In this document: positions 526-42,325 of the stretch, piece after piece | How positions within the stretch are numbered: the first letter of the stretch is position 1 | Layout: every line of letters begins with the position of its first letter | DNA from: a bacterium | Lineage (GTDB): Bacteria > Elusimicrobiota > Elusimicrobia > Elusimicrobiales > UBA9959 | Length of the DNA stretch: 56,092 nt | Direction: 5' to 3' | Assembly: GCA_021786295.1 (NCBI GenBank) | Contig: JAJYNO010000006.1 | Span: 1-56,092, forward strand | The notes under the pieces: model-generated | What the model was told of the DNA's origin: nothing | Seen by the model: the letters and a program-made list of their open reading frames with translations, nothing else | Databases searched by the model: none | Position numbers and translations under genes: made by a program

Positions 526-837
526 TCAGTAGGAGCCGTGGCTGCCGTGCGAACCGTGCGAGCCGTGGCTGCCGTGCGAACCGTGCGAACCGTGCGAGGA
601 GTGCGAGCCGTGCGAGCCGTGGCTGCCGTGCGAGCCGTGGCTGGAATGGCTGACGTGCGCGTTGGAGGTGAAGTAGTTCTGGTGCAGGTTCTGGGCGGAG
701 GCCTGGTCGGCCATCGTCATCCCCAGGATGCCGAGGGCGAGGCCCGTCTTGACGATATCGGAGTCCAGCATCTTCCCTTCCTCGCTGGAGAAGAAGAGCT
801 TGATGTTCTTTTTGATCTTGGATTGGCCTTTTTTCAT
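526..837 (-). CDS. hxsA: His-Xaa-Ser repeat precursor peptide (copy 1)
   Basis: A 103-residue small precursor. Residues 1-50 form a Lys-rich then hydrophobic leader containing FFSSEEGKM (15-23), DSDIVKTGLALGI and ASAQN. Residues 61-102 are 14 consecutive HxS triplets (11 HGS, two HSS, one HVS), ending in Tyr103. HxsA family members are Ser/His-repeat proteins always found with two radical SAM enzymes and HxsD; that context is present here. The leader is almost the same as in the second copy at 38136-38414, so one set of enzymes could recognise both. EEG followed by K and acidic residues before a hydrophobic stretch resembles a Flp-type prepilin signal (inferred cut after Gly21). An alternative Sec-type cut would be after ASA. 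The chemistry of any modification is unknown. Confidence 0.8.
   Translation of the reverse strand: MKKGQSKIKKNIKLFFSSEEGKMLDSDIVKTGLALGILGMTMADQASAQNLHQNYFTSNAHVSHSSHGSHGSHGSHGSHSSHGSHGSHGSHGSHGSHGSHGSY
532..657 (-). repeat. 9-bp tandem repeat encoding (His-Gly/Ser-Ser)n
   Basis: In-frame direct repeats with unit CACGGCTCG or CACGGTTCG on the minus strand encode HxS residues 61-102 of the precursor. Synonymous variation (GGC/GGT, TCG/TCC) shows drift between units, while the HxS period is kept exactly. Such repeats can expand or contract by slippage. Confidence 0.9.
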
Positions 838-853
838 AGAATGGTCCCCCGCC

Positions 854-1963
854 TCACTTCTTCTTGAGCATCTCCTTGGCGCGCTTGTTGACTTCTTCGT
901 CGAGCTTCTTCATTTCTTTCCGCATGCTCTCTTCCTGAGCCCTGGCCGCCTTGGTCTTCTCTATCTCCGCCTTGAACTGGTCCTGCGTCAGGCCGATAAA
1001 GCCGCCGCTGAGTTTCTTGACCCTCTCCACGGCGCCGCAGTAGAACCTGGACATATCCTGCAGCAGTTTATCGCAGGGCACGGTGGAGCGGTCCAACAGG
1101 GCGCGGCACTGGGGCTGATAGGACTTGGGACAGGCCTGGGCGCGGCCGCTCTTCATGGCGGAATAGAGGCCGTAAGTCACAAGGCAGTCCTGGTCCTTAC
1201 GGCAGTCACCTTCGCTCATGGGGAAAGCGGCGGCGATGCGGGCCTTGGCGTCCGGAGGCGTAGGGGCGAAGGCCTTCATCAGGAAGGGCTCCGCGGCCGC
1301 CGGGCCTTTGGCGAGGGCCGCGCAGAAATCCGGGACCGAGAAGCGGTCCAGGTCCGCCTTATCCCAGGTGGACAGGCCTATGCGGCAGTAGGAGGCGTCC
1401 GTCATGTTCCCGGAGAGGTAAGCCTCGAACAGCAGCCTGGAGGTCTTTTCCCGGCAAAGATAGTTAGGGGAACTCTCCTGGCTGACGCTCACGGCCCCGC
1501 CCTGGGAAGCGCCCGGCAGGGAATCGCACAGGCTGATGTCGAGCCTGGCGGCCGCGCTGCAGGCCACGTAATCCGAGAGCATCCCGTACATCTTGTTGGT
1601 CTCGTCCAGATTGAAGGCGACGCCCCTGGCGAAGAAGCCCCAGTAGCTGCCGTGGGTGGAGATCATGTCCTTCAGGGAGCCGCCCTCGCAGGCGCCTTTG
1701 TAGGCGCTCTGGATGAAAGGCAGGTAGATAGGCGATCCGTAAGCGGAGCCGCCGGCGGCCTCCGGCACGTAGTTGTCCGCGGCCTCAGGGAGTTCGTAGG
1801 CGGTAGCGCCAGGAGGCAGGGCGACCCCGATCTGCTCGGAAGGCGCGGGCTGCCCGGCGGGGCCCGGGACCGGGCCACGCTTCCGTTCCATCAGGTACTG
1901 CATCGCCAGCAGCACAGCCGCCAGCGCCACGATGACCAATATAGTCCATTTCTTCATAGGCAA
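854..1963 (-). CDS. Anchored Cys-rich periplasmic protein upstream of hxsA (copy 1)
   Basis: About 369 residues. The N-terminus has one transmembrane or uncleaved signal segment (WTILVIVALAAVLLAMQYL), then a Pro-rich linker and a Cys-rich helical domain with 13 Cys, many in CxxxxxC or EGDCRKDQDC spacing. The last 40 residues are charged and probably coiled coil (EEVNKRAKEMLKKK). I do not recognise a family. It is homologous to the protein at 38428-39462: compare FPMSEGDC..TYGLYSAMKSG with FPKSADGC..TLYGAVRSKD. Both sit immediately 5' of an hxsA gene, here 16 bases apart. TTG 1963 lies 7 bases behind GGAGG; ATG 1957 is the alternative start. The disulfide-rich extracytoplasmic domain may act on or carry the exported peptide (inference). 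Confidence 0.7.
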   Translation of the reverse strand: MPMKKWTILVIVALAAVLLAMQYLMERKRGPVPGPAGQPAPSEQIGVALPPGATAYELPEAADNYVPEAAGGSAYGSPIYLPFIQSAYKGACEGGSLKDMISTHGSYWGFFARGVAFNLDETNKMYGMLSDYVACSAAARLDISLCDSLPGASQGGAVSVSQESSPNYLCREKTSRLLFEAYLSGNMTDASYCRIGLSTWDKADLDRFSVPDFCAALAKGPAAAEPFLMKAFAPTPPDAKARIAAAFPMSEGDCRKDQDCLVTYGLYSAMKSGRAQACPKSYQPQCRALLDRSTVPCDKLLQDMSRFYCGAVERVKKLSGGFIGLTQDQFKAEIEKTKAARAQEESMRKEMKKLDEEVNKRAKEMLKKK

Positions 1964-2008
1964 CCGGTCGCCTCCCTACCCCTATGCACAGACAAGGCGT
2001 CGTATATA

Positions 2009-2037
2009 AATATATGTTCTAGCACAAAAATCGTCAA
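2009..2037 (-). promoter_or_regulatory. Sigma70-like promoter for the 1963/hxsA transcript
   Basis: On the minus strand TTGACG (2037-2032) and TATATT (2014-2009) are separated by 17 bases. The -35 box overlaps the stop codon of the upstream hxsB-like gene. The predicted start near 2002 gives a leader of about 40 bases. It would let the precursor pair be transcribed separately from the enzyme gene. Confidence 0.65.
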
Positions 2038-3449
2038 CTTTCAAGCCAGCTCTCCAGCACCGGCCCGGTGCGCCGGTCGAGCAGCCTTTCGAAAACGGCG
2101 TCGAAGACGCCCAGCAGGGAGGCGCAGCGGGCGTTGGCGGGCATGGAGCCCCACAGCCCCCCCTGGGCGGCCCGGTTGTAGGCGGGGCACACTCCGCAAT
2201 AGGGCCTGTAGGCGCAGCGGGCGCAGACCGGCTGCAGGTCCAGGCTGGAGGCCAGCGCGCAGGCCTTCACGGTTTCGGAGGAGATCAGCCTGCGGTAGCC
2301 GTCGCGCACCGAGCCCAGGCGGAAGGAGAGGTCCCCCTCCCTCGCCAGCATACGGCCCTCGTCGCAGGTGTAAACGCCGCCGTCCCAGTCGTAGGCGAGC
2401 TGCCCGAGGCCGGCCCCGCAAGGGCAGCGCAGGTCCACGTAGCGGTTATCCTGCGAGCCGACTATCTTCTTGACCGCGAGGAAAGCGGTCTTCTCCCTGA
2501 TCGGGACGCCTTTCAGGTTGAGTTCCAGCACGCGGTCGAGGCCCTCGCGGTAGAACCTGACGAAGTCCTCCGGGCCGTAGCCTATCTCCCCCCAGCGGCG
2601 CGCGGCCTGCCCCAGCGGGGACAGCGGGCGCAGGAAAACGTAAGGCAGCTTGAGGCGGGCGTATTCGTCCACTATCTCGCGGGCCCGCCCCAGCGAAGCG
2701 CGCGTCACGGTCAGCAGCGCGCTGGGCCCGCCGGGCGGCTGCGTGCCGCGCCGGGCCTGGAAATGCTTTATCCACCCGACCGCGGCGGCGTAGGAATCCC
2801 CGCCGGAGAAGGGCCGGTTGGCGTTATGCAGGTCCGCCGGCCCGTCGAGGGAGGTGCACAGCGAGATATCCTGCTCCGCGATGAAGCGGGCCTTGCTTTC
2901 GTCCATCAGGCTCAGGTTGGTGACCAGGGCCAGGGCCAGCTCCCTGCCGGTGGCGTCCGCTTTCTTCCTGGCGTAGAGGGCGGCCTCCCTGAGGACGGGC
3001 CAGTTGGCCAGCGGCTCGCCGCCCTGGAACTCTATGGTCAGCCCGGGGACCGGGGCGGAAAATGCGAAGTCCACCGCCTTACGGGCCGCGGCGGCAGACA
3101 TCGAACGGCCGGTGGTCTCGCCGGCCTGGCAATAGACGCAGGAATGGTTGCAGACCTGGGTCAGCACCATGATATGCAAACCGGGGCCCTTGGAAACGTA
3201 CTCGTTGGAATCCCGCCAGTCGGTGCAGGCGGCCTCGAAGTCCAGGCGGCCGCGCAGCAGGTTGGCCTTCTCCAGCCGCTTCAGCGCGGGGCCGTCCTTC
3301 AGGCGGCCTGCCGCGAAAAGGCGGAACTCTTCCGGCTTCAGCACGGCCCAGCCGCCCATATAGCCGGTCACGAGCACGCCTTTCTTCAGGCGGCGCCAGT
3401 TCAGGCCGGCGGGGGCGAGGGGATAGTCCTTCATGCGTCCGGATATCAT
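2034..3449 (-). CDS. hxsB: HxsB-like radical SAM/SPASM peptide maturase (copy 1)
   Basis: 471 residues. An N-terminal RRE-like region of about 85 residues is followed by a radical SAM core with CNHSCVYC (Cys100, 104, 107), EFQGGEP and CTSLDGP. FLRPLSPLGQA follows, then a Cys-rich SPASM region with RCPCG, YTCDEGRM, CARC and CGVCP. These are hallmarks of HxsB maturases in His-Xaa-Ser systems, which are predicted to modify HxsA through SAM radical chemistry and auxiliary 4Fe-4S clusters. It lies upstream of the Cys-rich protein and hxsA and diverges from ygeW. ATG 3449 is used; ATG 3434 is a possible alternative. Close paralogues are at 18255 and 39743. The true substrate reaction is unknown. 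Confidence 0.85.
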   Translation of the reverse strand: MISGRMKDYPLAPAGLNWRRLKKGVLVTGYMGGWAVLKPEEFRLFAAGRLKDGPALKRLEKANLLRGRLDFEAACTDWRDSNEYVSKGPGLHIMVLTQVCNHSCVYCQAGETTGRSMSAAAARKAVDFAFSAPVPGLTIEFQGGEPLANWPVLREAALYARKKADATGRELALALVTNLSLMDESKARFIAEQDISLCTSLDGPADLHNANRPFSGGDSYAAAVGWIKHFQARRGTQPPGGPSALLTVTRASLGRAREIVDEYARLKLPYVFLRPLSPLGQAARRWGEIGYGPEDFVRFYREGLDRVLELNLKGVPIREKTAFLAVKKIVGSQDNRYVDLRCPCGAGLGQLAYDWDGGVYTCDEGRMLAREGDLSFRLGSVRDGYRRLISSETVKACALASSLDLQPVCARCAYRPYCGVCPAYNRAAQGGLWGSMPANARCASLLGVFDAVFERLLDRRTGPVLESWLES

Positions 3450-20810: not shown

Positions 20811-20816
20811 GATGCT

Positions 20817-27266: not shown

Positions 27267-27967
27267 AAGGCTGCGGGGGCAGGGTCCCCGCCGGCGCCAC
27301 CGCGCCGGAGTTCCTCTACGTAGGCGGTGAGTTCTGCGAGAGGCTTCTCCCGCCGCCAGCCTGCCTGAGGCGGCTAAAGGAAGCTTTCCCCCGCTCGAAG
27401 CTGGTGCTCCTGACGCCGGTGCTCTCCCAGCCGGCGCTGGAGAGCCTGCTGGCGACGCTGAAAGCCGGCGCCAGGGAGGGCCTGCCTCAGGAGGTCTGCG
27501 TCAACGATCCGGGCCTTTTCCGCGCCCTCCTCGCGCGCGGCGGAGGGCCGCGGCTGAGCGTAGGCAGGCTGCTGGCCGGCGCGCTCGGAGTCTCTATGCA
27601 GCACGGACAGGTCAGGAGGGACCTGCTATCCCCGCGCGTGGCCGGGATAGAGGCCGATTCGCTGGAGACCCTGTCCTTTTTGACCGGGGCGCTGCGGCGC
27701 AAGGTGCACCTGCGCGCGCCCTTCTCCTACCTCGGCCACACGCGCAACTGCCGTTTCCGGGCGGCCGGCCGCTGCGCCAGGCAGTGCCTCGCAGGACACC
27801 TGCGCCTCAGGTCGGGCATCGTCGGGGAGATGTTCCTGGCCGGCAACGCCTACCTGAGGGACAACGCGGAGGAGGCCGCGCGGATAACGGAACAGGTCCG
27901 GGTGAAGCGGCTGGTGCTGGAAAGGGGCCCGGCCAAGGCCCCCGCAGGGCGGCCGCGGCCCCAATAA
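27245..27967 (+). CDS. U32-like Fe-S partner protein (copy 2)
   Basis: 240 residues from ATG 27245. FLYVGGEFCERLLP, VCVNDPGLFRALL, LSVGRLLAGAL, GIEADSLE, APFSYLGHTRNCRF and CARQCLAGHLRLRSG run parallel to the partner protein at 24793 (EFC, VNDPG, GRLL, RxC and CxxxC in the same order). The three Cys sites are kept. The C-terminal 20 residues are polar and Pro-rich. The frame upstream of 27245 lies over the U32 gene and is not used. Confidence 0.65.
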   Translation: MERAEVLKGCGGRVPAGATAPEFLYVGGEFCERLLPPPACLRRLKEAFPRSKLVLLTPVLSQPALESLLATLKAGAREGLPQEVCVNDPGLFRALLARGGGPRLSVGRLLAGALGVSMQHGQVRRDLLSPRVAGIEADSLETLSFLTGALRRKVHLRAPFSYLGHTRNCRFRAAGRCARQCLAGHLRLRSGIVGEMFLAGNAYLRDNAEEAARITEQVRVKRLVLERGPAKAPAGRPRPQ

Positions 27968-31771: not shown

Positions 31772-32983
31772 TCACCACAGCCCCAGCCTTCTGAGCACGG
31801 TGAAGAGATTGCCGTCGAAAGCCAGCTGGAAAAGGCAGCCGGCGAAGATCCAGACCGCGAAGGCCTCGCCCTTCATCACCTCTATCTTCGGGTTCTCGCG
31901 CGGGATGCGCGTCACCCATTCCCTAAGCAGCTCCGTCTCTTCCGGGCTTATGCCGTCCCTGAACGAGTCCTCGAAGGCGTCCTTGAAGTACGCGTCCCTC
32001 CTGACTATCTGCGCGTACCTGGAAGAAAGTATCATGCCCGGCTCCAGCTCGGCGGCGGAGACCTCCACCATGCTGAACCGCTCCATCAGATAGACCAGCG
32101 CGAACCGCCCCACCCCCAGTATCACGCCGAAACGCAGCACGTCGAGCGCCGCGTACCTGATATTCTGGAGCAGCTGTCCCTTGAAATAGAACAGACCGGC
32201 CAGCAGGTACACGGGATAGAAGAAGGTCAGGAAGCGCCTGAACCCCGGCCTGGAAAAATACCGGGAGAGTTTGTCCCAGCCTATGAACATCGCGAAGTAG
32301 AGCAGCTCGGGGTCCGGGACCAGCCGCTGCAGCCGCCCGGCTAAGCCGTAGTTGGCCAGCTGACGCACGAAGAAGACGGCCAGAACGGCCAGAACGTTCA
32401 GCGCCAGCTTCCAGGCGCTGCCCCCGCCGGCGCCGCGCAGCCTGCCCGAGGCCTCCTTCTTTATCTCGGCCCAGCGCGTCAGCGTGCGGCCGTCCCTCTC
32501 CCGCCAGGCGCGCCAGAGTCCGGCGAGGAACCTGAAACTGTAATAGGCCCCGGCGATCAGGAAGGAATTTATCAGCACCGAAAGCCAGAGCATCCCGGGG
32601 AAACCCCTGATCCGGTAGTTCATCAGCGGCAGCAGCGCCAGGCTGGTCATGAAGAACTTGGCGTCGCCGGCCGGCCAGATCTCCGCGTACCAGAGGAAGA
32701 TCCCGACCGCGGAGGAGAGCGCCAGGTTAGTCGCGAAGGCGTAATAGAATCCGCCGCCGACGTAGTCCGAAGAGGCGCCGGCCGCGCCCAGCGCGGTCTC
32801 CGCCGCGTACAGCGCCAGGAACAGCAGCAGCGCCTTCAGCCCGGCCACGATCATCCGGTTGGGGACCTTCTTGAACCTGAGGTCGTTGACCACTATCTTC
32901 CAGCCCCACCACAGGAAGAAGAGCAGCAGGGCGGCGCGGTAGGCCGTCAGCCTGTGGAACAGCAGCGCGAAGTCGCGGGTCAT
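31772..32983 (-). CDS. A24-type prepilin peptidase-like membrane aspartyl protease
   Basis: 403 residues with about seven hydrophobic segments. NDLRFKKVPNRM with Asp34 matches the first catalytic motif (D..xxxxIPN) of type IV prepilin/preflagellin peptidases. IWPAGDAKFF with Asp107 matches the GxGD motif (here AGDAK). The C-terminal soluble part, AAELEPGMILSSRYA and DGISPEETELLREW, is like that of archaeal-type A24 members. These enzymes cut class III signal peptides after Gly on the cytoplasmic face. The hxsA leaders carry such a Gly before a hydrophobic helix. It is the last gene of the right-hand operon, 25 bases after the gene of unknown function. Confidence 0.75.
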   Translation of the reverse strand: MTRDFALLFHRLTAYRAALLLFFLWWGWKIVVNDLRFKKVPNRMIVAGLKALLLFLALYAAETALGAAGASSDYVGGGFYYAFATNLALSSAVGIFLWYAEIWPAGDAKFFMTSLALLPLMNYRIRGFPGMLWLSVLINSFLIAGAYYSFRFLAGLWRAWRERDGRTLTRWAEIKKEASGRLRGAGGGSAWKLALNVLAVLAVFFVRQLANYGLAGRLQRLVPDPELLYFAMFIGWDKLSRYFSRPGFRRFLTFFYPVYLLAGLFYFKGQLLQNIRYAALDVLRFGVILGVGRFALVYLMERFSMVEVSAAELEPGMILSSRYAQIVRRDAYFKDAFEDSFRDGISPEETELLREWVTRIPRENPKIEVMKGEAFAVWIFAGCLFQLAFDGNLFTVLRRLGLW

Positions 32984-33008: not shown

Positions 33009-33866
33009 TCACAGGAAATAAACCTCCGAGAAACGCCCGTCCCGGCGCATCGACACGACGTTCTTCCTGCCGCCGACGGCGCCTATCCTTTTCAGCAGGG
33101 CGGCCCGCTGGCCGGGAGGGGGCAGGAAGGAGCCGGAGGACTTCTTCAGCAGGAAATGCGTCTTTTCGTCCTCGCGCGTCCTGCCCCCCGGGTAAAGCCT
33201 GGTGACCCTGACGTAGTGGGCCGCGCCTTCCACGCGATGGCGCCTCAGGAAGCCCTCCTCCTCCGGGCGAAGGCCGGCCCCGCCGTCGAACGGGAACTTG
33301 GCGTAGATCTTGAAAGAGCGCGGGCCGTCCCGGAAGAAATCCGCGCCTAGGAACATCATGTTCCCGGCGGCGCGGTGGATATAGTCCCAGTCCCCGCGGC
33401 CGAGCGTCCCGGCTATCAGCTTGGCGGTCCTGACGCTCACGTTCCTGAAGCAGAAATAGACGGTTATCTTCTCCACCGACGGTCGCGAGAAGCCCCATTC
33501 GGCGCTGACTATGGTGTAGGGGAAGGCCATCCCGGTCCCCTCCACGCTCCGGACGAAATCACGCAGGAAACCCGCCGGGGCCGGGCCGAAACCGGCCAGT
33601 TCCATCAGCTCCAGCGCCCTGCCGGCGAAGAGCAGCCCGAGCTTCCCTTTGCGGCGCAGCTCAGGGCGGTAATAGATATAGTGCACGAACCTCGCCCTGA
33701 CCGGCGAATCGAACGGGATGGAGCTCTCGTACTCCGAGATGCTGAGGTAGCGGGAGTTCCTCTCGCAGACGCCCACCAGGTCCGAAGCGAGCCGCCGGCT
33801 GGCCGGTCCGGCCCCGAAAGCCTCCCCCAGGCGGCCGAGGCAGGCCAGCAGCTCCGGAGCGTTCAT
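33009..33866 (-). CDS. Unrecognised soluble protein of the Hxs island
   Basis: 285 residues; I do not recognise the family. It has no signal, no membrane span and few Cys. Two segments look like repeats of one strand-loop-strand unit: EWGFSRPSVEKITVYFCF and LGADFFRDGPRSFKIYAKF. A final strand pair is HYVRVTRLYP and KTHFLLKK. K-x-Y-x-F in repeated strands recalls PT-barrel (ABBA) prenyltransferases, but this is a weak visual likeness. It overlaps the PP-loop gene by ATGA (33863-33866), which favours ATG 33866 over GTG 33878. Operon context suggests a tailoring step on the peptide. Confidence 0.6.
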   Translation of the reverse strand: MNAPELLACLGRLGEAFGAGPASRRLASDLVGVCERNSRYLSISEYESSIPFDSPVRARFVHYIYYRPELRRKGKLGLLFAGRALELMELAGFGPAPAGFLRDFVRSVEGTGMAFPYTIVSAEWGFSRPSVEKITVYFCFRNVSVRTAKLIAGTLGRGDWDYIHRAAGNMMFLGADFFRDGPRSFKIYAKFPFDGGAGLRPEEEGFLRRHRVEGAAHYVRVTRLYPGGRTREDEKTHFLLKKSSGSFLPPPGQRAALLKRIGAVGGRKNVVSMRRDGRFSEVYFL

Positions 33867-34528
33867 CCGAGTTTCCACTCCAGCACTTCCAGGTGCCGCT
33901 CGCCGCCGGGCGTCTCCACGGGCCTGCTCTTCAGCACCTTCAGTCCCCGCTTGAGGAGCGGCCCCCTCAGCACCAGCGTCTGGAAATCGAAATTATCGGG
34001 GTCCGCCCCCCTTTTCTCCTGTTCTTCGAGATAGTTCATGAAGGCGCCGCCAGCGCGTTTGCCGAGAAAGCCCCGGGCCTCCCTGCCCACCACCCCGGTT
34101 ATCAGCATCTCGAGGCCGCTGCGCAGCGCCTCCCTGAACGCGTCGGCGGGGCTGACGCCGAGCAGCGGGTAGACGCAGGGAGTGCCGCGCACCTTTTCCG
34201 GGAACGCGCCGCGCCCGCCGGAGGGTCCGGAGAGGCCGATATAAAAAGCGCCGGTCTTCCCGGCTTTCACCGGGACCGCCCGCAGCGCGCGGCCGATGAG
34301 CGAGGCTTCATCGCCGAAGTCCGAGACCTTCTGGACGTAAGGCCTGAGGCCCATTCCGGCAGCCAGGTCCCTGATCAGGCGCGGATTGCGGAAATCGTTG
34401 AAGAATCCGAAGTGCTTCTTTCCCCCGTCCAGGTACAGCAGGCCGGAGACTTCGGCCTTGTCCCCCAGGGCCCGCATCAGGGTCAGATAGCTGTCCTTCC
34501 CGCCGCTGAAAGCGACTATCGTTCTCAT
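33863..34528 (-). CDS. Dph6-like PP-loop ATP pyrophosphatase (copy 2)
   Basis: 221 residues. IVAFSGGKDSYLTLM (4-18) is the PP-loop. FYIGLSGPSGGRG, YPLLGVSPADAFREAL, LITGVVGREARGFLGKR and FQTLVLRGPLLKRGLKVL follow the DUF71/Dph6 plan. It differs from copy 1 (13394): the acceptor-loop motif reads NDFRNPRLIRDLA rather than TELRKTGIVRLHA, and the final motif is closer to the family norm (TLVLRGPLLKR). An ATP-dependent amidation or adenylation in the pathway is inferred. It is followed with ATGA overlap by the unknown gene and preceded by a 36-base gap. Confidence 0.78.
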   Translation of the reverse strand: MRTIVAFSGGKDSYLTLMRALGDKAEVSGLLYLDGGKKHFGFFNDFRNPRLIRDLAAGMGLRPYVQKVSDFGDEASLIGRALRAVPVKAGKTGAFYIGLSGPSGGRGAFPEKVRGTPCVYPLLGVSPADAFREALRSGLEMLITGVVGREARGFLGKRAGGAFMNYLEEQEKRGADPDNFDFQTLVLRGPLLKRGLKVLKSRPVETPGGERHLEVLEWKLG

Positions 34529-34564: not shown

Positions 34565-35653
34565 TTAACCGCCATAAGAGGCCTCCACCATGCCGTGCAC
34601 CGCCTTCACGTAGGCGAAATACCTTTCGTCCGAGGAGGCCTTCTCAAGGACATCCTTAAAAAAAGCCTCTATCCTGCGGGTCCTGTAGGAATAGGGGGCG
34701 TGGCCGTCGGCCAGCCCGCCGATGACGTAGTAATCGGCTACGCACCGGCCGCAGGCCTTCGACGGGAACGAGCAGTCCCGGAACCTCTTCCGCAGGCCGC
34801 TGCGCGCGGCGCCTATCCTTATGCGGCCTATATACCGCCTGTAGTCCACGAAGCCGAAGGGGTAGAGCGAATAGCTGCCGTCGGGGTAGAGCTCCAGGTC
34901 GCGGTAGAGCGGGCAGGAGAACTTTTCGCGCGAGCCGGAACAGACCAGCATGTCCAGGAAGGTCTCCAGGAAGACGAAGTTCCCGGAGCGGATGCCGCGC
35001 TCTATGCGGCGCAGCACCTTCTCGAAGCCGGCGCGGAACGCGGCGAAGCTCTCCTCCGTCCAGCCGTGGCCGTGGACGCACTCTATGTCCACCACGCTGA
35101 ACCCGGCCTTCAGCACCTTCCCGAAATCCTCCGGGACGGTGGCCGCGTGCCCCGGGTTCACGCAGTAGAGGGCCACCAGGTTCTTCCCCTTAAGCGCCCC
35201 GGCCGCGAGCGCGCTCTTTTTGCTTACCACCGCGTGCGAGCCGGCCCCGCCGGGGAAGACGCGGTCGTGGTCGTGCGCCTCGCGGCCGCCGGAGAAGCTT
35301 ATGGCCAGTCCGACGCCGTTCTCCCTTAGCCAGGCGAGCTTCTCCTCGTCCAGCGGCACGGAGCTGGTGGCTACGGTGATGAAGAGCTTCTTGCGCGCCC
35401 TCCCGTTGGCCCTCCTGGCGTAGGCCACTATTTCCTTGAGCAGCTCGTACCTGAGGAACGGCTCTCCGCCGTAGAGCTCCAGCCTCTTGCGGCGGCCTGG
35501 GCTGGAGAGGAAAAGGTCCACGGCCCGCGCCGCGTCGGAAAAGCGCATGGTCAGCCCGAGGCTCTTGTCTATGAAGCAGTGCCGGCAGCGCAGCACGCAG
35601 TCGGAGGTGAGCGCCAGCTTGAGCTTCTGTATCTCCTTGTTGAACTCAGGCAT
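34565..35653 (-). CDS. Radical SAM protein, divergent type
   Basis: 362 residues. CVLRCRHC at Cys19, 23 and 26, ELYGGEPFLRYE and SFSGGREAHDHDR form the core. The C-terminal Cys are arranged as CSGSREKFSCPLYRDLELYPDGSY, FRDCSFPSKACGRC, unlike the compact group and closer to SPASM-like single-cluster proteins. VDIECVHGHGW is a Cys/His-rich segment of unknown meaning. It overlaps the upstream radical SAM gene by 8 bases and precedes the PP-loop gene by 36 bases. The best guess is a peptide-modifying or sensor-type radical SAM enzyme. Confidence 0.8.
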   Translation of the reverse strand: MPEFNKEIQKLKLALTSDCVLRCRHCFIDKSLGLTMRFSDAARAVDLFLSSPGRRKRLELYGGEPFLRYELLKEIVAYARRANGRARKKLFITVATSSVPLDEEKLAWLRENGVGLAISFSGGREAHDHDRVFPGGAGSHAVVSKKSALAAGALKGKNLVALYCVNPGHAATVPEDFGKVLKAGFSVVDIECVHGHGWTEESFAAFRAGFEKVLRRIERGIRSGNFVFLETFLDMLVCSGSREKFSCPLYRDLELYPDGSYSLYPFGFVDYRRYIGRIRIGAARSGLRKRFRDCSFPSKACGRCVADYYVIGGLADGHAPYSYRTRRIEAFFKDVLEKASSDERYFAYVKAVHGMVEASYGG

Positions 35654-36656
35654 AATAGGGCTTAAGCGGGAAAGAGGCGGGCTTCCTGCGCACGGGGCGG
35701 AACTCGCTCACGCCGTAGCGCTCCGAGTAGGCCCGCTCGAAACCGGCGCAGACCTTGTTGTAGGCGCAGCGCCGGCAGCCGGCGGCCTTGGCGCGCAGGC
35801 GCTCCGTGACCATGGTGTACATGCGCCCGATGTGCGTCTCCTCCGGCAGGAAGAGGTCGTCGTCGTTCTCCGGCAGCTCCCAGTCCTTCATGAGGTTGGC
35901 GTGCTCGGGCATCAGGCAGGGCAGGTAGTTGCTCAGGAACCTGAACGCGGGACGCACGCCGCTGGAGGCGAAGACCTCCACGGCCTCGCGCACGAATGGC
36001 ACCTGCTCCGAATACCTGGCCACGAGGCGGCCTATGTTGCCTTCGGCCGCGCCCATGCAGTGGGTGGCGATCAGGTGTATGGAATCCGTCGGGAAGCGCT
36101 CAAGCACGAAGCGCACGAAACCCGGAAGGTCCTTGTAGTTCATCGCGGTCACGGCGCTGTTGATGTTAAGGTAGACGCCGAGGCCGGAAAGGTTCTCGCA
36201 CGCGCGGCAGGCCTTGCGGAAAGACCCCTTGACCCCGGTGACGGCGTCGTGCGCGGCGGAGGTGCGGCCCTGCAGGGAGATGCTGGCGGTGTTCAGGCCG
36301 CTCTCCGCGAGCTCGCGCGCGTACGCGCGGTCGGCCAGCCTTATCCCGTTGGAGATCACCTGTATGGCCGGGTAGCCTATCTTCGCGGCGAGGCGCACCA
36401 GCCGCGGCAGCTCCTCGTAGACGGTGGGCTCACCGCCGATGAACTGCACCATGCGCGAGCCGTTCTTGTAGGAGAGCAGCAGGCGGTCCGCGGCCTGCTT
36501 GAGGCGCAGGTCCGGGTGGCGGCGCCATTCCTCCATATCGGGGGAACTGTAGCAGAAGACGCACCTGGCGTTGCAGGAATAGTTCAGCGTCAGCTCGCAG
36601 ACCTTCATGCGCCCGCCGGGCCAGCCGAACTTCTTCGCCGCTTCCCCGATGAGCAT
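35646..36656 (-). CDS. Compact radical SAM protein (HxsC-like group)
   Basis: 336 residues from ATG 36656, whose A is shared with the upstream stop (TGATG). CNARCVFC at Cys28, 32 and 35, QFIGGEPTVYEELP, ISLQGRTSAAHDAVTGVKGSF, VTAMNYKDLP and NYLPCLMPEHANLMKDWE precede the shared tail CRRCAYNKVCAGFERAYSERYG with EFRPVRR. An extra Cys20 precedes the core. It is paired with the HxsB-like gene just upstream, like the 18255/17372 pair, so it is another HxsC-type candidate. Confidence 0.83.
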   Translation of the reverse strand: MLIGEAAKKFGWPGGRMKVCELTLNYSCNARCVFCYSSPDMEEWRRHPDLRLKQAADRLLLSYKNGSRMVQFIGGEPTVYEELPRLVRLAAKIGYPAIQVISNGIRLADRAYARELAESGLNTASISLQGRTSAAHDAVTGVKGSFRKACRACENLSGLGVYLNINSAVTAMNYKDLPGFVRFVLERFPTDSIHLIATHCMGAAEGNIGRLVARYSEQVPFVREAVEVFASSGVRPAFRFLSNYLPCLMPEHANLMKDWELPENDDDLFLPEETHIGRMYTMVTERLRAKAAGCRRCAYNKVCAGFERAYSERYGVSEFRPVRRKPASFPLKPYYA

Positions 36657-38053
36657 CAGTCCACCCCTTCCGCGAGCCAGATATCGAAGATCTTTTTCCA
36701 CCTGCGGTCGCGCTTGAGCTTCAGCACGAGCCCGAACATCAGCTTGAAGAACCGGCAGCGGTCGCTGGAGGCCAGATCGCCCCAGAACGAGCCCTGGAAG
36801 ACGTAGTTGTAGACAGGCGAGATCCGGCAGTAGTAGCTGTAGGGGCAGCGCGCGCAGTACGGCTGGGACAGCTCTCCGAAGCAGGACGCTATCAGCGTCC
36901 TGGCCAGCGGCGTTCCCAGTATCCCCTCGAAGGTGTCGCGGCGGACGTTGCCCAGCCTGAAGAAGTCGTCACCTGACGAGGCCAGCATCCTGGCCTCGTC
37001 GGAAGGGTAGATGTCGCCGTTGCGGTCGTAGGCCAGCCTCACCAGCAGCTCCAGGTTGCGGTGCGGGTTCCGCTCCGCGGTCTCCGTCATCTTCAGGATG
37101 TTGAAGGCGCCCTTCTCGTAGACGGCCCGGCCTTCGCGCATGGTCAGTTCGCCCATGCGCTGCAGCGCCCTGCGGTAGAAAGCGAAGTACTCTTCCGGAG
37201 TATAACCGAGCCCGGAATTGCCGGCGGCGCGGCCCAGCGGGTCCAGCGGCCCCAGCTGTATGCGGTAAAGACCGTTCTCCACGTAGGAATCCACCGTCTC
37301 CTCGGGATAGGGCAGCAGGGCGCGCGTCACGGTGCAGATGGCGTTCGGCGCCTCCATGGAGGAGCCGCTGGCCCTGCGGCGGCCTATCTCGCCCAGCCAG
37401 CGGACCACCCGGTCGTAGTTGGAGCCGGCTCCGGAGGCGCGGTTGGCGTCGTGCACGCGGCGGACCGCGTCGAAGGAGGCGCAGACGGACACGCCGCTGC
37501 GCTCCAGGAAATCAAGTTTCTCCGAGTCCATGTTCTGGAGGTTGGTGACGACGGAGAAATGCAGCCTCTTCCCAGCCTTGCGGTTCAGGCGTTTCGCCTC
37601 CTCCACTATATATCTCAGGACACCGAAGTTCAGCAGCGGCTCCCCGCCCTGGAACTCCAGCGTGAGCCCTCCGCTCCTTATCGAAAAAACGAAGGCCAGC
37701 AGTCTGTCGGCCGTGGCCCGGGTCATGTCGCGCCCGGGAGAAGAATTGGCGCTGGCCGAGCAGTAGGCGCAGTTCAGGCTGCACCTGTTGGTCAGCGTGA
37801 CGATGTGTATGTACGGGCCGGCGTAGTCGGCGAAATAACGGCCGCGCAGCCTTGCGCCGACGCCGTCCAGGTCCAGCCTGTCGGAGAAAAAATCGTTCCG
37901 TTCCAGAAGGGCGGCCGTCCGCGGGGCCAGGTCCGGCCGCCGGAAAGCGCGCGAAGAGACGCGGGGAAGGAAAAAGACGCGGCCGGAGGAATTCGCCAGG
38001 AACATTCCTCCGGCCGTATTTTCAAAGGCTATGTCGAAGAGCTCGTTCTTCAT
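36656..38053 (-). CDS. hxsB: HxsB-like radical SAM protein with reduced SPASM cysteines (copy 3)
   Basis: 465 residues. CSLNCAYC at Cys91, 95 and 98, LEFQGGEPLLNF, CASFDAVRRVHDANR, LGPLDPLGRA and CARCPYSYYC place it with HxsB. It departs from copies 1, 2 and 4: RCPCG becomes NLELL, YTCDEGRM becomes YPSDEARM, and CGVCP becomes CRISP, so at least four auxiliary-cluster Cys are absent. The SDEARM form may be ancestral rather than a loss. QPYC and SSDRC remain. It lies 82 bases downstream of hxsA copy 2, behind a hairpin. Confidence 0.82.
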   Translation of the reverse strand: MKNELFDIAFENTAGGMFLANSSGRVFFLPRVSSRAFRRPDLAPRTAALLERNDFFSDRLDLDGVGARLRGRYFADYAGPYIHIVTLTNRCSLNCAYCSASANSSPGRDMTRATADRLLAFVFSIRSGGLTLEFQGGEPLLNFGVLRYIVEEAKRLNRKAGKRLHFSVVTNLQNMDSEKLDFLERSGVSVCASFDAVRRVHDANRASGAGSNYDRVVRWLGEIGRRRASGSSMEAPNAICTVTRALLPYPEETVDSYVENGLYRIQLGPLDPLGRAAGNSGLGYTPEEYFAFYRRALQRMGELTMREGRAVYEKGAFNILKMTETAERNPHRNLELLVRLAYDRNGDIYPSDEARMLASSGDDFFRLGNVRRDTFEGILGTPLARTLIASCFGELSQPYCARCPYSYYCRISPVYNYVFQGSFWGDLASSDRCRFFKLMFGLVLKLKRDRRWKKIFDIWLAEGVD

Positions 38054-38135: not shown

Positions 38136-38414
38136 TCAGCACCACCCTCCCCTGGAATGGGAGCCGTGCGAGCCGTGCGAGCCGTGCGAGCCGTGCGAGC
38201 CGTGCGACGCGTGCGAGCCGTGCGAGCCGTGGCTGTAATGGCCGGTCTGGGCCGTGTAGTTCGTATGCAGGACGTTCTGGGCCGAGAGGTCCTCGGTCAT
38301 GGCGGCCCCTATGATACCCAGGGCGATGGCGGTCTTCAGCACGTCGGAGTCCACCATCTTTCCCTCTTCGCTGCTGAGGAACTTCTTTATTTTCCCGTTT
38401 CCTTTCTTTGCCAT
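38136..38414 (-). CDS. hxsA: His-Xaa-Ser repeat precursor peptide (copy 2)
   Basis: 92 residues. Leader 1-47 has KIKKFLSSEEGKMVDSDVLK, then TAIALGIIGAAMTEDLSAQN. HxS triplets run from His59 to Ser85 (nine units: HYS, HGS, HGS, HAS, five HGS) and end HSRGGWC. The C-terminal Trp-Cys is absent from copy 1, which ends in Tyr. The leader matches copy 1 at most positions but lacks four residues after KIKK. The Flp-like break would be after Gly18. It sits between the Cys-rich anchored protein (13 bases upstream) and hxsB copy 3, in an operon that also holds two HxsD-like proteins and hxsB copy 4. Confidence 0.82.
   Translation of the reverse strand: MAKKGNGKIKKFLSSEEGKMVDSDVLKTAIALGIIGAAMTEDLSAQNVLHTNYTAQTGHYSHGSHGSHASHGSHGSHGSHGSHGSHSRGGWC
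38160..38240 (-). repeat. 9-bp tandem repeat encoding HxS triplets (copy 2)
   Basis: Nine in-frame units, mostly CACGGCTCG on the minus strand, encode residues 59-85. Five central units are nearly identical at the DNA level, which suggests recent expansion by slippage. Confidence 0.9.
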
Positions 38415-38427
38415 AATCTTCCCCTCG

Positions 38428-39462
38428 TCACTCGCTTTTCTCTTTCTGGCCCGTCCTGGCCTTCCTGATGGCGGAATCCAGGGCGTTCTGCTGCTGCGCC
38501 GTGCGTTCCACGAGCATGGCCTGGTCGGCGATGGGCTTGACCATGCAGTAGTCCTGAAGGACGGCGGCGGCCAGCGGCTGGCACGAGTCGGCCGTCTTGT
38601 TGAGCAGGGCCGCCGCGAGCGGGCTCAGGTCCTGCCCGGCGGAGGCGGGGTCCTTGGACCTGACCGCGCCGTAAAGGGTCCACATCCTGGAGCAGGAATC
38701 GTTCTTGCAGCCGTCCGCGCTCTTCGGGAAGGTCTCCAGGCACGTCGCGCGCACCTCGGCCGGCGCCTTGCCGCAGAAGTTATCGGAGACGGCCGCCAGG
38801 CCGCCCTTGGCTATTCCGCAGAAATAGCTGTCGGACACGAACTTGTCGGCGCCCTTCATGTTATAGTGGAAATAAGCCGCGCACAGCGACATCCCGGACC
38901 CGCCCTGCATGTAGCCGACCAGTCCCGCCGGATACAGGGTCTCTATGCAGGAGCGGCGCAGCGCCTGGCCGGCCATGTCGCGCTCTTTTGCCGATCTGGG
39001 GCAGAGGTCCTTCCCCTGCACGAGGGCCAGGCAGGCCTCGTACTTCCCGGCCTTCTCGTAGAGCGCGTTTATGCGTGGCTCGCCTACGGCCTTTATGACG
39101 GCGTAGTTGTCCATCTGTTCCATCACCTTGTCGCTCAGCACGTCCCTGGCTTTAGTGCCCTGCGGACAGCCCTCCAGGTCCGCCGGCATCTTGGGGACCA
39201 GGGACTGGTCGATGTGCGCCGGCGGGACGGAGGGCGCGGACGGCTGCTGGTAGGGAGCGCCGGCAGTGCCAGAGAGCGGCGCGGACATGTCCTTGGCCGC
39301 CTCCGGCAGAGGCACTCCGACCTGCTGCGGCGGCTGCGGCACGGCCGCCTCCGTCTTCACGGCCTCGGCCGCTTCCCTGCTGGCCCGGACGGAAGTCCTG
39401 TACCGCGCATAAAGAAGCCCGGCCAGCAACGCCACCGCCACCAATATCAGCGTTCTTTTCAT
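38428..39462 (-). CDS. Anchored Cys-rich periplasmic protein upstream of hxsA (copy 2)
   Basis: 344 residues from ATG 39462, with its stop-start overlap (ATGA) to hxsD. One N-terminal span (LILVAVALLAGLLYA), a Pro/Ala linker containing PPQQVGVPLPE, then a helical domain with 14 Cys, many in pairs (DGCKNDSC, ADSC, LQDYC). QQVGVPLPEAA matches EQIGVALPPGA in copy 1, and FPKSADGC..TLYGAVRSKD matches FPMSEGDC..TYGLYSAMKSG. The function is unknown. Conserved position 5' to hxsA in both loci suggests a dedicated partner of the exported peptide such as a docking or assembly protein. Confidence 0.7.
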   Translation of the reverse strand: MKRTLILVAVALLAGLLYARYRTSVRASREAAEAVKTEAAVPQPPQQVGVPLPEAAKDMSAPLSGTAGAPYQQPSAPSVPPAHIDQSLVPKMPADLEGCPQGTKARDVLSDKVMEQMDNYAVIKAVGEPRINALYEKAGKYEACLALVQGKDLCPRSAKERDMAGQALRRSCIETLYPAGLVGYMQGGSGMSLCAAYFHYNMKGADKFVSDSYFCGIAKGGLAAVSDNFCGKAPAEVRATCLETFPKSADGCKNDSCSRMWTLYGAVRSKDPASAGQDLSPLAAALLNKTADSCQPLAAAVLQDYCMVKPIADQAMLVERTAQQQNALDSAIRKARTGQKEKSE

Positions 39463-39746
39463 CACGCCCCCTGTTTTTTCTGCCCCAGGGCCGAGACCAG
39501 CGCGTTGGCCAGTATCAGCTGAGAGGTCTTGAAGTTCTTCTTCACCAGGTCTATCCTGCACTGCTGGTTCAAAGCTTCGTTCATGAACTCCCGGAAAGCC
39601 GCCTCCGGGTCCCCGCCGGAAACCTCGACGCGGAGCCCGGCCGAGCCGTCCTTTACCTCTATGCGCGCGGCGCCGGAGACGTTGGCCGCCAGGCGCAGTG
39701 CCTCGGCGGAATAAACGACGCGGTCCACGGTGAATTCTTTTTTCAT
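39462..39746 (-). CDS. hxsD: HxsD-like small protein (copy 1)
   Basis: 94 residues from ATG 39746. VVYSAEALRLAANVSG, RVEVSGGDPEAAFREFMNEALNQQCRIDLVKKN and SQLILANALVSAL fit HxsD, the fourth component of His-Xaa-Ser systems. Its FxxExLxQxxR segment followed by a helix containing ILANAL is characteristic from memory. The reaction or binding role is not known. It lies between hxsB copy 4 (ATGA overlap) and the Cys-rich protein (ATGA overlap), so expression is tightly coupled. Confidence 0.7.
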   Translation of the reverse strand: MKKEFTVDRVVYSAEALRLAANVSGAARIEVKDGSAGLRVEVSGGDPEAAFREFMNEALNQQCRIDLVKKNFKTSQLILANALVSALGQKKQGA

Positions 39747-41194
39747 CTGCTCTCTCCGATCCCGGCCCATTTCTCCAGCACAGGCCGGCTCTTGGCGTCC
39801 TGCAGCAGCCCGAACAGCAGGTCCAGCACGCCCATCATCAGCCGGCAGCGGTAATTCGAGGGCATCAGCCCCCAGATGCTGCCCTGCGTCTCGTAATTAT
39901 AGACGGGGCAGACCCCGCAGTAGGGCTTGTAGGCGCATCTGAAGCAGAGCGGCTGGGACTCCAGGTTGGAAGAGGCGCAGACGGCCCTGGTGGTGGCGTT
40001 AGAGACCACGGCCTCGTACTTGTCGCGGACCGTGCCGACCTTGAAGAGGTCGTCCCCGAGCCAGCCGACCATCCTCCCCTCGTCGCAGGTGTAGACGTCG
40101 CCGTTGTAGTTGTAGGCCAGCTGCCCGATGGAAGCTCCGCAGGGGCACCGCATATCGAGGTAGCCGGAGTCCTTGTGGCCCAGCGCCTTCATCAGCAGCA
40201 TCTGAGCGAACTTCTCCTTTATCGGCTCGCCCGCCGCGCTCTTCCCGATGATGTAGCGCAGCGCCTCTTCGTAGAACTTCAGGAAATCCCCGGGAGCATA
40301 GCCGATGATATCCCAATGCTTCTTGGCGTAGCCTATCGGCGCCAGCGGCCTGAGGAAGATCTCCTCCAGCCCCAGGCCCAGGTATTCGTCCACAATGGCC
40401 CTGGCGGAGCCGAGCGACCGTTTCGAGACCGTGAGCAGCGCGCTGGGTTTGAAGACCCTGTATTTAAGCCCGTTCTGGGAATCGTGCCTGGCCTTGAAAT
40501 ACTTTATCCACCTGACCGTTTTCTTGTGGGAATTTCCGCCGGCGTACGTCCTGTTCCCGTTGTGGATGGGCTCGGGGCCGTCCAGCGAGGTGCAGATGGA
40601 GACCTCGTTCTCCAGCAGGAACCTCGCCTTTTCCTCGTCCATCAGGCTGAAATTGGAAACCAGGGCCAGAGTGAGCTTCTTGCCGGTCTTCCTCTCCTTG
40701 AGCCTGGCGTACCTTACCGCTTCGCGGAGAACGCTCCAGTTGACCAGCGGCTCGCCGCCCTGGAACTCTATCGTGAGCGCGCTGCGCGGCGTCTGGAAGG
40801 CGAGGTCCACCGACTTTTTCGCCACGGCGGGGGACATATCCGCGTTCCCGGCCCTTTCCCCGACCACCGAGGACTGACAGTACAGGCACTTATGGTTGCA
40901 CCGCAGCGTCATCACGAAGATATGCAGCCCGGTGCCGTGAAAGACGGAGGCGTTGGCGGATTTCCACCTGCCGAACAGGGTCTCGAACCCGAGCCGGTCC
41001 TTCACGAACCCTCCGGCGACCAGGGCCTCGTAGGACCGGCCGGGGACAGGTTTCCCGGAGCGGTATCTGTCGAACTCGCTGCGCGAAAGGAAGACGTGGC
41101 CTCCGAAATCGTTGGTAAGAAGGACCCCGCCGCGGAGCTCGCGGAACCGGAAATCCGGGGCTTCGACGCCCTTACTTCCCGGTTTTTTTGCCAT
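39743..41194 (-). CDS. hxsB: HxsB-like radical SAM/SPASM peptide maturase (copy 4)
   Basis: 483 residues, closest to copy 1. An N-terminal strand-helix region (FRFRELRGGVLLTNDFGGHVFL) resembles a RiPP recognition element. CNHKCLYC at Cys99, 103 and 106, IEFQGGEPLVNW, CTSLDGPEPIHNGNR, FLRPLAPIGYA, RCPCGASIGQLAY, YTCDEGRM, CFRC and CGVCPVYNY carry the complete HxsB cysteine set. QSSV after the core motif also agrees with HxsB, as far as I recall. It is flanked on both sides by HxsD-like genes and followed by hxsA copy 2, so this is the most canonical Hxs cluster in the window. Confidence 0.87.
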   Translation of the reverse strand: MAKKPGSKGVEAPDFRFRELRGGVLLTNDFGGHVFLSRSEFDRYRSGKPVPGRSYEALVAGGFVKDRLGFETLFGRWKSANASVFHGTGLHIFVMTLRCNHKCLYCQSSVVGERAGNADMSPAVAKKSVDLAFQTPRSALTIEFQGGEPLVNWSVLREAVRYARLKERKTGKKLTLALVSNFSLMDEEKARFLLENEVSICTSLDGPEPIHNGNRTYAGGNSHKKTVRWIKYFKARHDSQNGLKYRVFKPSALLTVSKRSLGSARAIVDEYLGLGLEEIFLRPLAPIGYAKKHWDIIGYAPGDFLKFYEEALRYIIGKSAAGEPIKEKFAQMLLMKALGHKDSGYLDMRCPCGASIGQLAYNYNGDVYTCDEGRMVGWLGDDLFKVGTVRDKYEAVVSNATTRAVCASSNLESQPLCFRCAYKPYCGVCPVYNYETQGSIWGLMPSNYRCRLMMGVLDLLFGLLQDAKSRPVLEKWAGIGESR

Positions 41195-41606
41195 ATTTTT
41201 GCTCCCAGGTCTTGGTTATGCCCCTCGGGTCCTCTTTCTTTATCTCGCTCTCGACCTGGGCTATCAGCTGTTCAAGTTCCTTCTCCTGCTCGGGAGTGAG
41301 CCCCACGTCCTCGGCGCGGTTGATCTGCTCCGGGACGTGGTTTATCGCGCGCTTGATCATCCAGAAGCGGAGGTCCTTGTTCCTGTCGAACAGCCCCTCC
41401 CGGAACTTCTCGTCCTCCAGCTCGCGAAGGAACCGTTCCTTCAGGTCCGCGGCCTTGCCGCCGTTCTTGGGAAGGAACGAGACCTTCACCGAAGTTTTGG
41501 CCGAGCTCAATGTCACGTAGGCCGCCCCGCTCACCGCGTAGGCGGCGTATCTTATGGTCTCCAAAGAGAATTTTTTTCTGCCCACCTGGATGTCTATCTT
41601 TTTCAA
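41172..41606 (-). CDS. hxsD: HxsD-like protein with C-terminal extension (copy 2)
   Basis: 144 residues. YAAYAVSGAAYVTL, FLRELEDEKFREGLFDRN and FWMIKRAINH align with the HxsD core of the protein at 39462, followed by about 50 charged residues (LTPEQEKELEQLIAQVESEI) that look like a coiled coil. The start is TTG 41606 behind AGGGAGGGG, an uncommon start codon also suspected at 1963. It overlaps hxsB copy 4 by 23 bases. Having two HxsD-type proteins around one HxsB is unusual; they may form a heteromer. Confidence 0.65.
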   Translation of the reverse strand: MKKIDIQVGRKKFSLETIRYAAYAVSGAAYVTLSSAKTSVKVSFLPKNGGKAADLKERFLRELEDEKFREGLFDRNKDLRFWMIKRAINHVPEQINRAEDVGLTPEQEKELEQLIAQVESEIKKEDPRGITKTWEQKYGKKTGK

Positions 41607-41641
41607 AACCCCTCCCTGTCCTTATCCCGGGCCGGCCGCCG

Positions 41642-42325
41642 CTAGTATATCCTGCAGCACAGCATGGTCCCGGCGGCGGGCACCGCCGTGTTGCCCGCCA
41701 CGCAGTAGCCGTTGTAAACGCCCACGCAGGCCAAAGCGTTGATGGAGCTGGTATAGTTCACGTTCACCAGGTTCTCCCCGGCCGGGCAATAGGTCCAGCC
41801 GCCGCTGCCCATCCCCACCGTCTGGCACAGGCCCGATATGGTCATGTTGTTGCCTGTTATCGTAGAGCCGTTGTTGGCGAGGTAAAGGTTGCCGTACAGT
41901 CCCATCCATTGGTTGGCGTAGTTGATGAGCCGCACGTTATAGTCACCGCCGCCGCCGTAATGGAAGTCTATGAAAGGGGTGCCGCCGCCGTTCTGGCCGA
42001 GCTCGATTGAGCCGTTCTGGTCCGTGTTCAGCTGGGAGCCGGACCACTCTATGGCGCCGTTGACGTCCAGGGCGTAAGCCGGGTTGGGATTGGCGTTCCT
42101 TATGCCCACGCTGCCGCTGTCCCTGGCCAGGATGGTCTGGCCGGTTGTGAGTATGCTGACATACCCGCCGTAGGGCGCTGGGTAATACGTGGTAAGGGTA
42201 AGCGTCTCGGAACCGATGAAGCCTGGATGCCAGCAGAGGAAGAAGAGCGTCAGGAGCAGAAGAAGCCCTCTGCGGCCTATCCGGGGAACAGGGATATGTA
42301 TGTTTATCTCTTTGACGTTATCCAT
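41642..42325 (-). CDS. Secreted surface protein with TTYYPAP motif and Cys-rich end
   Basis: 227 residues. A basic 20-residue start, one hydrophobic segment (GLLLLLTLFFLCWHPGFIG) and then SETLTLTTYYPAPYGGYVSI, followed by GSVGIRNANPNPAYALDVNGAIE. That last phrase is the repeat seen in tail-fibre-like and bacterial surface proteins. The end holds LCQTVG, YCPAGE, LACVG, GYCVAG and LCCRIY, probably disulfide-bonded. The function is unknown. It may be the first gene of the Hxs operon (35-base gap), driven by the promoter at 42398-42426, or a neighbour. Confidence 0.6.
   Translation of the reverse strand: MDNVKEINIHIPVPRIGRRGLLLLLTLFFLCWHPGFIGSETLTLTTYYPAPYGGYVSILTTGQTILARDSGSVGIRNANPNPAYALDVNGAIEWSGSQLNTDQNGSIELGQNGGGTPFIDFHYGGGGDYNVRLINYANQWMGLYGNLYLANNGSTITGNNMTISGLCQTVGMGSGGWTYCPAGENLVNVNYTSSINALACVGVYNGYCVAGNTAVPAAGTMLCCRIY

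Follow-up and report, generated by a model that had tools for sequence, protein, structure and literature searches.

The window analysed here is the whole 56,092-nucleotide stretch of contig JAJYNO010000006.1 (GenBank assembly GCA_021786295.1), one entire contig of a 2.3 Mb genome (79% complete) from a bacterium of the Elusimicrobiota (Elusimicrobiales, UBA9959), and its subject is a His-Xaa-Ser (Hxs) peptide gene cluster. Genes were chosen by guanine-cytosine bias, and families were assigned by NCBIfam and Pfam profile searches, with curated cut-offs of 55 bits for HxsA4 (NF038313), 370 for HxsB (TIGR03978), 268 for HxsC (TIGR03977), 50 for HxsD (TIGR03976) and 500 for HxsC4 (NF038332). A CxxxCxxC scan combined with family searches gave 16 radical S-adenosylmethionine (SAM) genes, the number put forward in the original prediction, comprising four HxsB-type enzymes, eight compact HxsC/HxsC4-like enzymes, and R3, R9, V1 and V2; two HxsA4 precursors and two weak HxsD-like proteins accompany them. 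These genes probably represent an enlarged Elusimicrobiota Hxs peptide-maturation system, in which two HxsA4 precursors are served by partly separate enzyme sets, with a thioether predicted to be formed by R9 and possible leader cutting by an A24 peptidase.

The cluster had been proposed as one span (526..42325); the span is split into two blocks, 526-3449 (at the contig edge) and 11314-42325, by 7.8 kb (3497-11250) that looks like an ordinary housekeeping stretch (OTCase, NDK, lipoproteins and an M20-type peptidase, read from translations rather than from a family-library scan). The genes of the two blocks were as follows:

526..837, minus strand: HxsA4 precursor A1, tail ...HGSHGSY, no Cys (NF038313, 80.9 bits)
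854..1957, minus strand: L1, predicted N-terminal transmembrane helix and all-helical Cys-rich domain, adjoining the Y-tail precursor
2034..3449, minus strand: HxsB B1 (TIGR03978, 432 bits)
11314..12561, minus strand: SufS-like pyridoxal phosphate cysteine desulfurase (TIGR01979, 260 bits, below cut-off 475)
12558..13403, minus strand: C1, compact radical SAM enzyme, HxsC-like (TIGR03977 best match, 70 bits, below cut-off)
13394..14113, minus strand: N1, Dph6-like ATP pyrophosphatase (PF01902, 60.5 bits; TIGR03679, 64 bits, below cut-off)
14146..15333, minus strand: C2, compact radical SAM enzyme with an extra conserved C-terminal Cys (NF038332, 88 bits, below cut-off)
15337..16329, minus strand: R3, PapB-like radical SAM enzyme without CxxCx5C (NF047865, 47 bits, below cut-off)
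16326..17375, minus strand: C4, compact radical SAM enzyme, HxsC4-like (NF038332, 140 bits, below cut-off)
17372..18262, minus strand: C5, nearest to HxsC (TIGR03977, 168 bits, positions 33-289 of 292, below cut-off 268)
18255..19685, minus strand: HxsB B2 (TIGR03978, 413 bits)
19682..20662, minus strand: C6, compact radical SAM enzyme, HxsC4-like (NF038332, 159 bits, below cut-off)
20781..22826, plus strand: V1, radical SAM enzyme, weakly B12-binding-like, with a fused flavodoxin-2 domain (PF02525, 86.7 bits; PF04055, 29.7 bits; PF02310, 19.3 bits, below cut-off)
22823..24769, minus strand: P1, PPDK_N and PEP-utiliser mobile domains, dikinase/ligase-like (PF01326, PF00391)
24793..25494, minus strand: U1a, partner of the U32 protein, UbiV-like Cys C38/C174/C184/C188 (Cys in 11/11 sequences)
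25476..26318, minus strand: U1b, UbiU-like U32 protein (PF01136, 48 bits; UbiU model, 52 bits, below cut-off)
26436..27266, plus strand: U2a, second U32 protein (PF01136, 43 bits)
27245..27967, plus strand: U2b, partner of U2a by position and Cys pattern (no family match)
27985..29043, plus strand: C7, compact radical SAM enzyme (NF038332, 87 bits, below cut-off)
29056..30789, plus strand: V2, radical SAM enzyme nearest to PhpK-type methyltransferases (TIGR04479, 74 bits, below cut-off)
30802..31764, plus strand: C8, compact radical SAM enzyme (TIGR03977, 73 bits, below cut-off)
31772..32983, minus strand: A24 (prepilin-type) aspartic peptidase, Hxs-linked subfamily (PF01478, 19.6-23.3 bits, below cut-off 26.5)
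33009..33878, minus strand: X (no NCBIfam/Pfam match)
33863..34528, minus strand: N2, Dph6-like ATP pyrophosphatase (PF01902, 45.9 bits)
34565..35653, minus strand: R9, CteB/PapB-like radical SAM enzyme, predicted thioether maturase for the GGWC tail (PapB, 104 bits; SCIFF maturase, 93 bits; below cut-offs)
35646..36701, minus strand: C9, compact radical SAM enzyme of the Cys-tail module (NF038332, 107 bits, below cut-off)
36656..38053, minus strand: HxsB B3 (TIGR03978, 314 bits, below cut-off 370)
38136..38414, minus strand: HxsA4 precursor A2, tail ...SHSRGGWC (NF038313, 62.1 bits)
38428..39462, minus strand: L2, L1 homolog (22% identity to L1; no family match)
39462..39770, minus strand: HxsD-like D1 (TIGR03976, 18.7 bits, below cut-off 50)
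39743..41194, minus strand: HxsB B4 (TIGR03978, 462 bits)
41172..41606, minus strand: HxsD-like D2 (TIGR03976, 38.6 bits, below cut-off 50)
41642..42325, minus strand: YYPAPYG-type protein whose N-terminal stretch is hydrophobic, containing a TLTTYYPAPYGGY segment (from sequence; no Pfam match)

As originally predicted, the window holds two HxS-repeat precursors: both passed the HxsA4 cut-off (80.9 and 62.1 bits for A1 and A2, respectively), and a six-frame scan found five or more tandem HxS units only at their two loci. Common to both were a leader (a basic stretch, FLxSEEGK and a short hydrophobic stretch), a linker and the HxS core, while the tails set them apart (GSY in A1, RGGWC in A2). 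A2 contains exactly one Cys, its final residue, and A1 contains none. Each precursor has its own HxsB and L protein beside it. Both tail classes are present in the window's single genome.

The HxsA precursors of relatives likewise fall into tail classes (Cys, Y and W), and some of the enzymes sort by the tail of the precursor near them. Among the 77 of 96 distinct precursors that had enough flanking sequence, and with score thresholds that we set ourselves, 20 of 30 Cys-tail precursors had R9 no more than 10 kb away (the other ten having none within that distance), and none of the 23 Y-tail or 19 W-tail precursors did. C9 and B3 were nearby only at Cys tails (19/30 against 0/42 Y or W tails for C9; 16/30 for B3), and B1 only at Y tails (14/23, against 0/30 Cys and 0/19 W tails). 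The earlier suggestion of several peptides sharing one factory needs to be modified accordingly, the factory being partly divided between the tails.

At the level of whole genomes, R9 followed the tail ending in Cys and not the HxS repeat. In the first count, which left 13 of 80 HxsA-positive genomes unscored, R9 and a GGWC tail were both present in 30 genomes and both absent in 35, with one exception each way (65 of 67 in agreement). The R9-only genome (G150) proved to have a further precursor beside R9, ending CRGGWCNPRC, and three R9 carriers scored later (G288, G168 and G201) had GGWC tails too, G288 and G168 coming from the unscored genomes, of which nine remain unscored. The precursor of G201 (L223:17104, minus strand) has HxN instead of HxS repeats, a SEEG leader and a GGWC tail, and was missed by the HxsA4 model; its neighbour is HxsB, and R9 matches lie at distances of 4 and 11 kb. 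With these corrections, 34 genomes had both, 35 neither and one the tail only (69 of 70), so that R9 was present in 34 of 35 GGWC-tailed genomes and in none of 35 scored genomes without that tail; the stricter figure is 65 of 67, because the later genomes were chosen for carrying R9, which favours agreement. In the sole tail-only genome (G292), R9 matches occur in three short pieces. Outside the count, one Y-tailed and one W-tailed genome (G110 and G094) in which no R9 was found fit the rule, and in G268, where R9 is present, the contig stops before any precursor. When 46 genomes were placed on an rpoB tree (one ORF, or open reading frame, per genome, chosen by similarity), tail and R9 required 11 parsimony changes each and differed only at G292.

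The only PDB sequence match of R9 at E<=0.001 was entry 5wgg, listed as 'Radical SAM domain protein', which we take to be CteB. CteB is described as the maturase of the SCIFF ranthipeptide; it installs a Cys thioether, and an auxiliary cluster in it leaves a site open for substrate (PMC8326336). Because of this match and because A2 has a single, final Cys (A1 having none), R9 is predicted to make a thioether at the tail Cys of A2.

The four HxsB-like proteins of the original prediction were all found, three of them above the TIGR03978 cut-off (432, 413 and 462 bits) and B3 below it (314 bits). At the three auxiliary cluster I (Aux I) positions that were tested, B4 has Cys and 17 of 17 B3 sequences have none, while all 17 keep the four Cys of Aux II; B3 thus appears to have lost its Aux I ligands and retained those of Aux II. 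The compact enzymes with a CxxC-x5-C tail, predicted to number at least eight, were exactly eight (the motif also occurs in the four HxsB proteins, and is lacking in R3, R9, V1 and V2). A match of the compact enzymes to unrelated tRNA or cofactor families had been considered; for all eight the best NCBIfam model was HxsC or HxsC4 (HxsC4 for five of them), though below the cut-offs, and the match of C5 to TIGR03977 was near full length. Each compact class keeps one extra Cys together with CxxC-x5-C in 97-100% of sequences, a pattern that would fit a single auxiliary cluster. Of the 14 classes in a tree of 175 radical SAM sequences (a chosen subset made up of the window, 18 of 77 loci and 6 of 19 region groups), 11 formed single clades, the exceptions being B3, B4 and C9, and by this measure the radical SAM enzymes of the cluster represent separate lineages.

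The structure model of D2 was mixed alpha/beta, with weak ferredoxin-like and KH-like PDB neighbours, none at E<=0.001; a role for HxsD as a winged-helix leader-binding domain was not supported by this mixed fold. The YYPAPYG-type protein adjoins D2 both in the window and in many relatives.

HxsA4 was detected in 80 of 294 Elusimicrobiota genomes (68 over the cut-off), and in at least 45 of 47 genomes of the window's family. Carriers of the other genes among the 294 genomes were nearly all HxsA-positive (A24, 66/71; R9, 33/35; C4, 53/54; U1b, 33/33), and R9 was absent from 47 of the 80 HxsA-positive genomes. Two gene runs, D2-B4-D1-L-A-R9-B3-C9 and C6-B2-C5-A24-C4-R3-C2-C1-SufS, recurred whole or in part, the gene order recurred across families of the class, and a wider group made up of HxsC-like and HxsC4-like enzymes, the SufS-like protein and the A24 peptidase recurred with Hxs phylum-wide. 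The 77 best HxsB-set loci came from Elusimicrobia, Elusimicrobiota or Elusimicrobiales (62), from entries named 'bacterium' only (9) and from other phyla (6). Judged from these sequence comparisons, the cluster is an old one that occurs widely across the phylum. Similar HxsB loci were seen in metagenome-assembled genomes of Patescibacteria, Moraniibacteriota, Spirochaetes, Cyanobacteria, Deltaproteobacteria and Schekmanbacteria (L101, L102, L094, L106, L107 and L075), L094 and L101 also having a weak A24 protein match.

In the leader, SEEG or SEEA preceded the short hydrophobic stretch in all 64 precursors matched by phmmer; when 102 ORFs were selected by the HxS repeat alone, without selection on SEE[GA], 99 had the motif. 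Gly or Ala following SEE is a requirement of prepilin-type peptidases. In the Hxs-linked A24 subfamily, D34, G106, D107 and K109 were kept in 43 of 43 sequences, including both catalytic Asp, the second within GDxK, and this cluster-linked peptidase may cut the conserved FLxSEEG leader. Across 33 sequences of L1 and its relatives, eight Cys and a single Gly were invariant. L1 had no NCBIfam or Pfam match, and its structure model (predicted local distance difference test score 85) matched no PDB fold at E<=0.001; the protein is predicted to be a transmembrane-anchored helical domain with conserved Cys. Together, the leader and the L partners, predicted to be anchored in the membrane, point to export. 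The SEEG/SEEA motif was missing from three ORFs that hold at least five tandem HxS units (L169:9855-10298 in G247, L203:9897-10439 in G189 and L206:9924-10313 in G210).

Of the accessory proteins, the SufS-like protein kept Cys374 in 21 of 21 sequences. U1a, an ORF with no U32 family match in NCBIfam or Pfam, has four Cys in a pattern similar to the published UbiV motif CXnCX12CX3C (PMC6747719), with the spacing CX9CX3C; these Cys were kept in 11 of 11 sequences, and those of U1b were partly conserved. From their linkage to the cluster, the U32 pairs, N1, N2, P1 and the SufS-like protein would act on the peptides. P1 (22823-24769) is related to rifampin phosphotransferase and prodigiosin ligases. 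The Dph6-like N1 and N2 raised the idea of diphthamide-like chemistry on His, which would be speculative.

Nitrogenase-like genes lie near the cluster in many relatives. NifH-NifD-type fusions were found 6-9 kb from HxsA at four loci (L112:8402-12317, L134:4-3527, L135:11391-13625 and L125:4718-8504), with a NifK-type protein beside the fusion in three of them. Within the class (nine outside genomes dropped, only part of the A24 places entered and no chance expectation computed), at least 39 of 76 strong NifH places, in at least 21 of 34 genomes, were within 25 kb of HxsA or an Hxs-linked A24 gene. The window's own genome (79% complete) had no NifH match at E<=1e-40, NifDK not having been searched there. 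Elusimicrobia loci with nitrogenase paralogs and radical SAM genes were reportedly assigned by Meheust et al. in 2020 to a predicted tetrapyrrole reduction pathway.

In the favoured reading, HxsB and HxsC-type enzymes would modify the His/Ser repeat with the help of HxsD, and R9 would link the final Cys of the RGGWC-tailed precursor to a residue close by, through a thioether made by radical chemistry. Further changes would come from the U32 pairs, the cobalamin-type radical SAM proteins, the ATP pyrophosphatases and the dikinase-like protein; judging by the families, these could be hydroxyl, methyl, amide or phosphoryl groups. The A24 peptidase would remove the leader after SEE-Gly during export to the envelope, where L1 and L2 would sit. 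We infer multi-step chemistry on the His/Ser repeat, as had been suggested from the number of enzymes.

A number of observations weigh against this reading. No compact enzyme reached the HxsC or HxsC4 cut-off (best 168/268 and 159/500 bits, respectively), and the two HxsD-like proteins that had been predicted, which do stay beside HxsB in relatives, both fell below 50 bits (38.6 and 18.7). The A24 protein scored below the Pfam gathering score (19.6 to 23.3 against 26.5 bits, PF01478) and had no match in 14 of 80 HxsA-positive genomes; Lys occurs within the hydrophobic stretch of HxsA, which weakens a canonical prepilin reading, and AxA-like sites (such as ASAQ and PAPA) follow that stretch in many precursors, so that signal peptidase I could also cut HxsA. 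R9 was far below the curated cut-offs (SCIFF, 93/425 bits; PapB, 104/340 bits) and is therefore not filed as a member of either family; it lacks some SPASM Cys of CteB, and the Cys conserved in 18 sequences would be enough for the SAM cluster plus roughly one auxiliary cluster, not two. Shuffled tail labels gave a mean of 15.5 changes against the 11 observed, so tail is weakly clustered on the rpoB tree, and precursor and R9, often neighbours, may move as one module. Since C9 and B3 show the same local association with the Cys tail, the role of R9 rests on its CteB kinship as well as on co-occurrence.

There is a real possibility, somewhat short of even, that the HxsA leader acts as a common Sec signal peptide whose n-region is long, with FLxSEEG serving to dock HxsD or HxsB and A24 processing other, pilin-like proteins. 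The AxA-like sites would fit this, as would the HxsA-type proteins of two canonical plasmid systems, which read as plain signal peptides; it would leave aside that the A24 subfamily is tied to HxsA and sits inside the cluster, and that Gly or Ala follows SEE in nearly all repeat-selected ORFs. It is unlikely that only the core HxsA, B, C and D proteins act on HxsA while the other genes form a neighbouring pathway, for example for a cofactor. U32, Dph6-like and SufS-like proteins do act elsewhere on tRNA, quinones, proteins or Fe-S assembly, and nitrogenase-like genes, reportedly assigned to tetrapyrrole reduction by Meheust et al. in 2020, are nearby in relatives; but the surveyed accessory genes are almost confined to HxsA-positive genomes and interleave with HxsA, B and C in varying orders, and R9, C9, B3 and B1 track the precursor tail. 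Least probable, and very unlikely in our view, is a metal-handling surface peptide whose HxS repeats bind metal and whose enzymes only trim or cap the ends: the 11 to 15 His per short precursor peptide, and the export suggested by the leader and L partners, would agree with it, but 16 radical SAM enzymes, mostly in separate clades, would be left unexplained.

Among known systems, the His-Xaa-Ser systems (TIGR03976-TIGR03979) are the closest, the window likewise having an HxS precursor beside HxsB, HxsC-like and HxsD-like proteins. The Nostoc and Paraburkholderia plasmid systems, in which all four genes are annotated, have the order A-D-B-C, whereas the window, with its two precursors, carries 16 radical SAM genes along with an A24 peptidase, the U32 pairs and further genes. 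SEEG, present in the leaders here, is missing from the HxsA-type proteins on the Nostoc and Sphingobium plasmids, and no A24 gene was among those listed beside four plasmid Hxs systems, in gene tables that are incomplete. Both window precursors reach the HxsA4 model, while the compact enzymes stay below HxsC4; as NCBI holds HxsA4 and HxsC4 models, these parts are known to curators, and the cluster is therefore a variant of the Hxs system, not a new kind. R9 has CteB as its only PDB sequence match and PapB as its best NCBIfam model, and differs from them in having fewer conserved SPASM Cys and, as predicted target, a single C-terminal Cys beside HxS repeats. As in the UbiU-UbiV hydroxylases, the window's U32 genes are paired, with one Pfam U32 match per pair; unlike these, U1b is below the UbiU cut-off and the pairs are linked to a peptide system. 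Maturation by HxsB and HxsC is called putative, with credit to Haft and Basu, in one source (PMC9062424), and a literature search by title and abstract returned nothing on the present system and no report of an Hxs product.

Because tail class and enzyme set correspond, there is a concrete handle on the system: a single enzyme (R9), a single residue (the Cys that ends A2) and a single expected mass change. The A24 peptidase is suggested as the enzyme of leader removal. Like the loci reportedly described by Meheust et al. in 2020, relatives carry NifH-NifD-like fusions and NifK-like genes near HxsA. A tentative and on balance doubtful extension would be one phylum-wide peptide platform, with radical SAM sets assigned by tail, prepilin-type leader cutting and a nitrogenase-like reductase joining in many species, so that the nitrogenase-paralog loci would lead to a peptide-borne product rather than, or besides, a free tetrapyrrole. 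A radical SAM peptide system linked to nitrogenase-like genes would reopen the interpretation of those genes.

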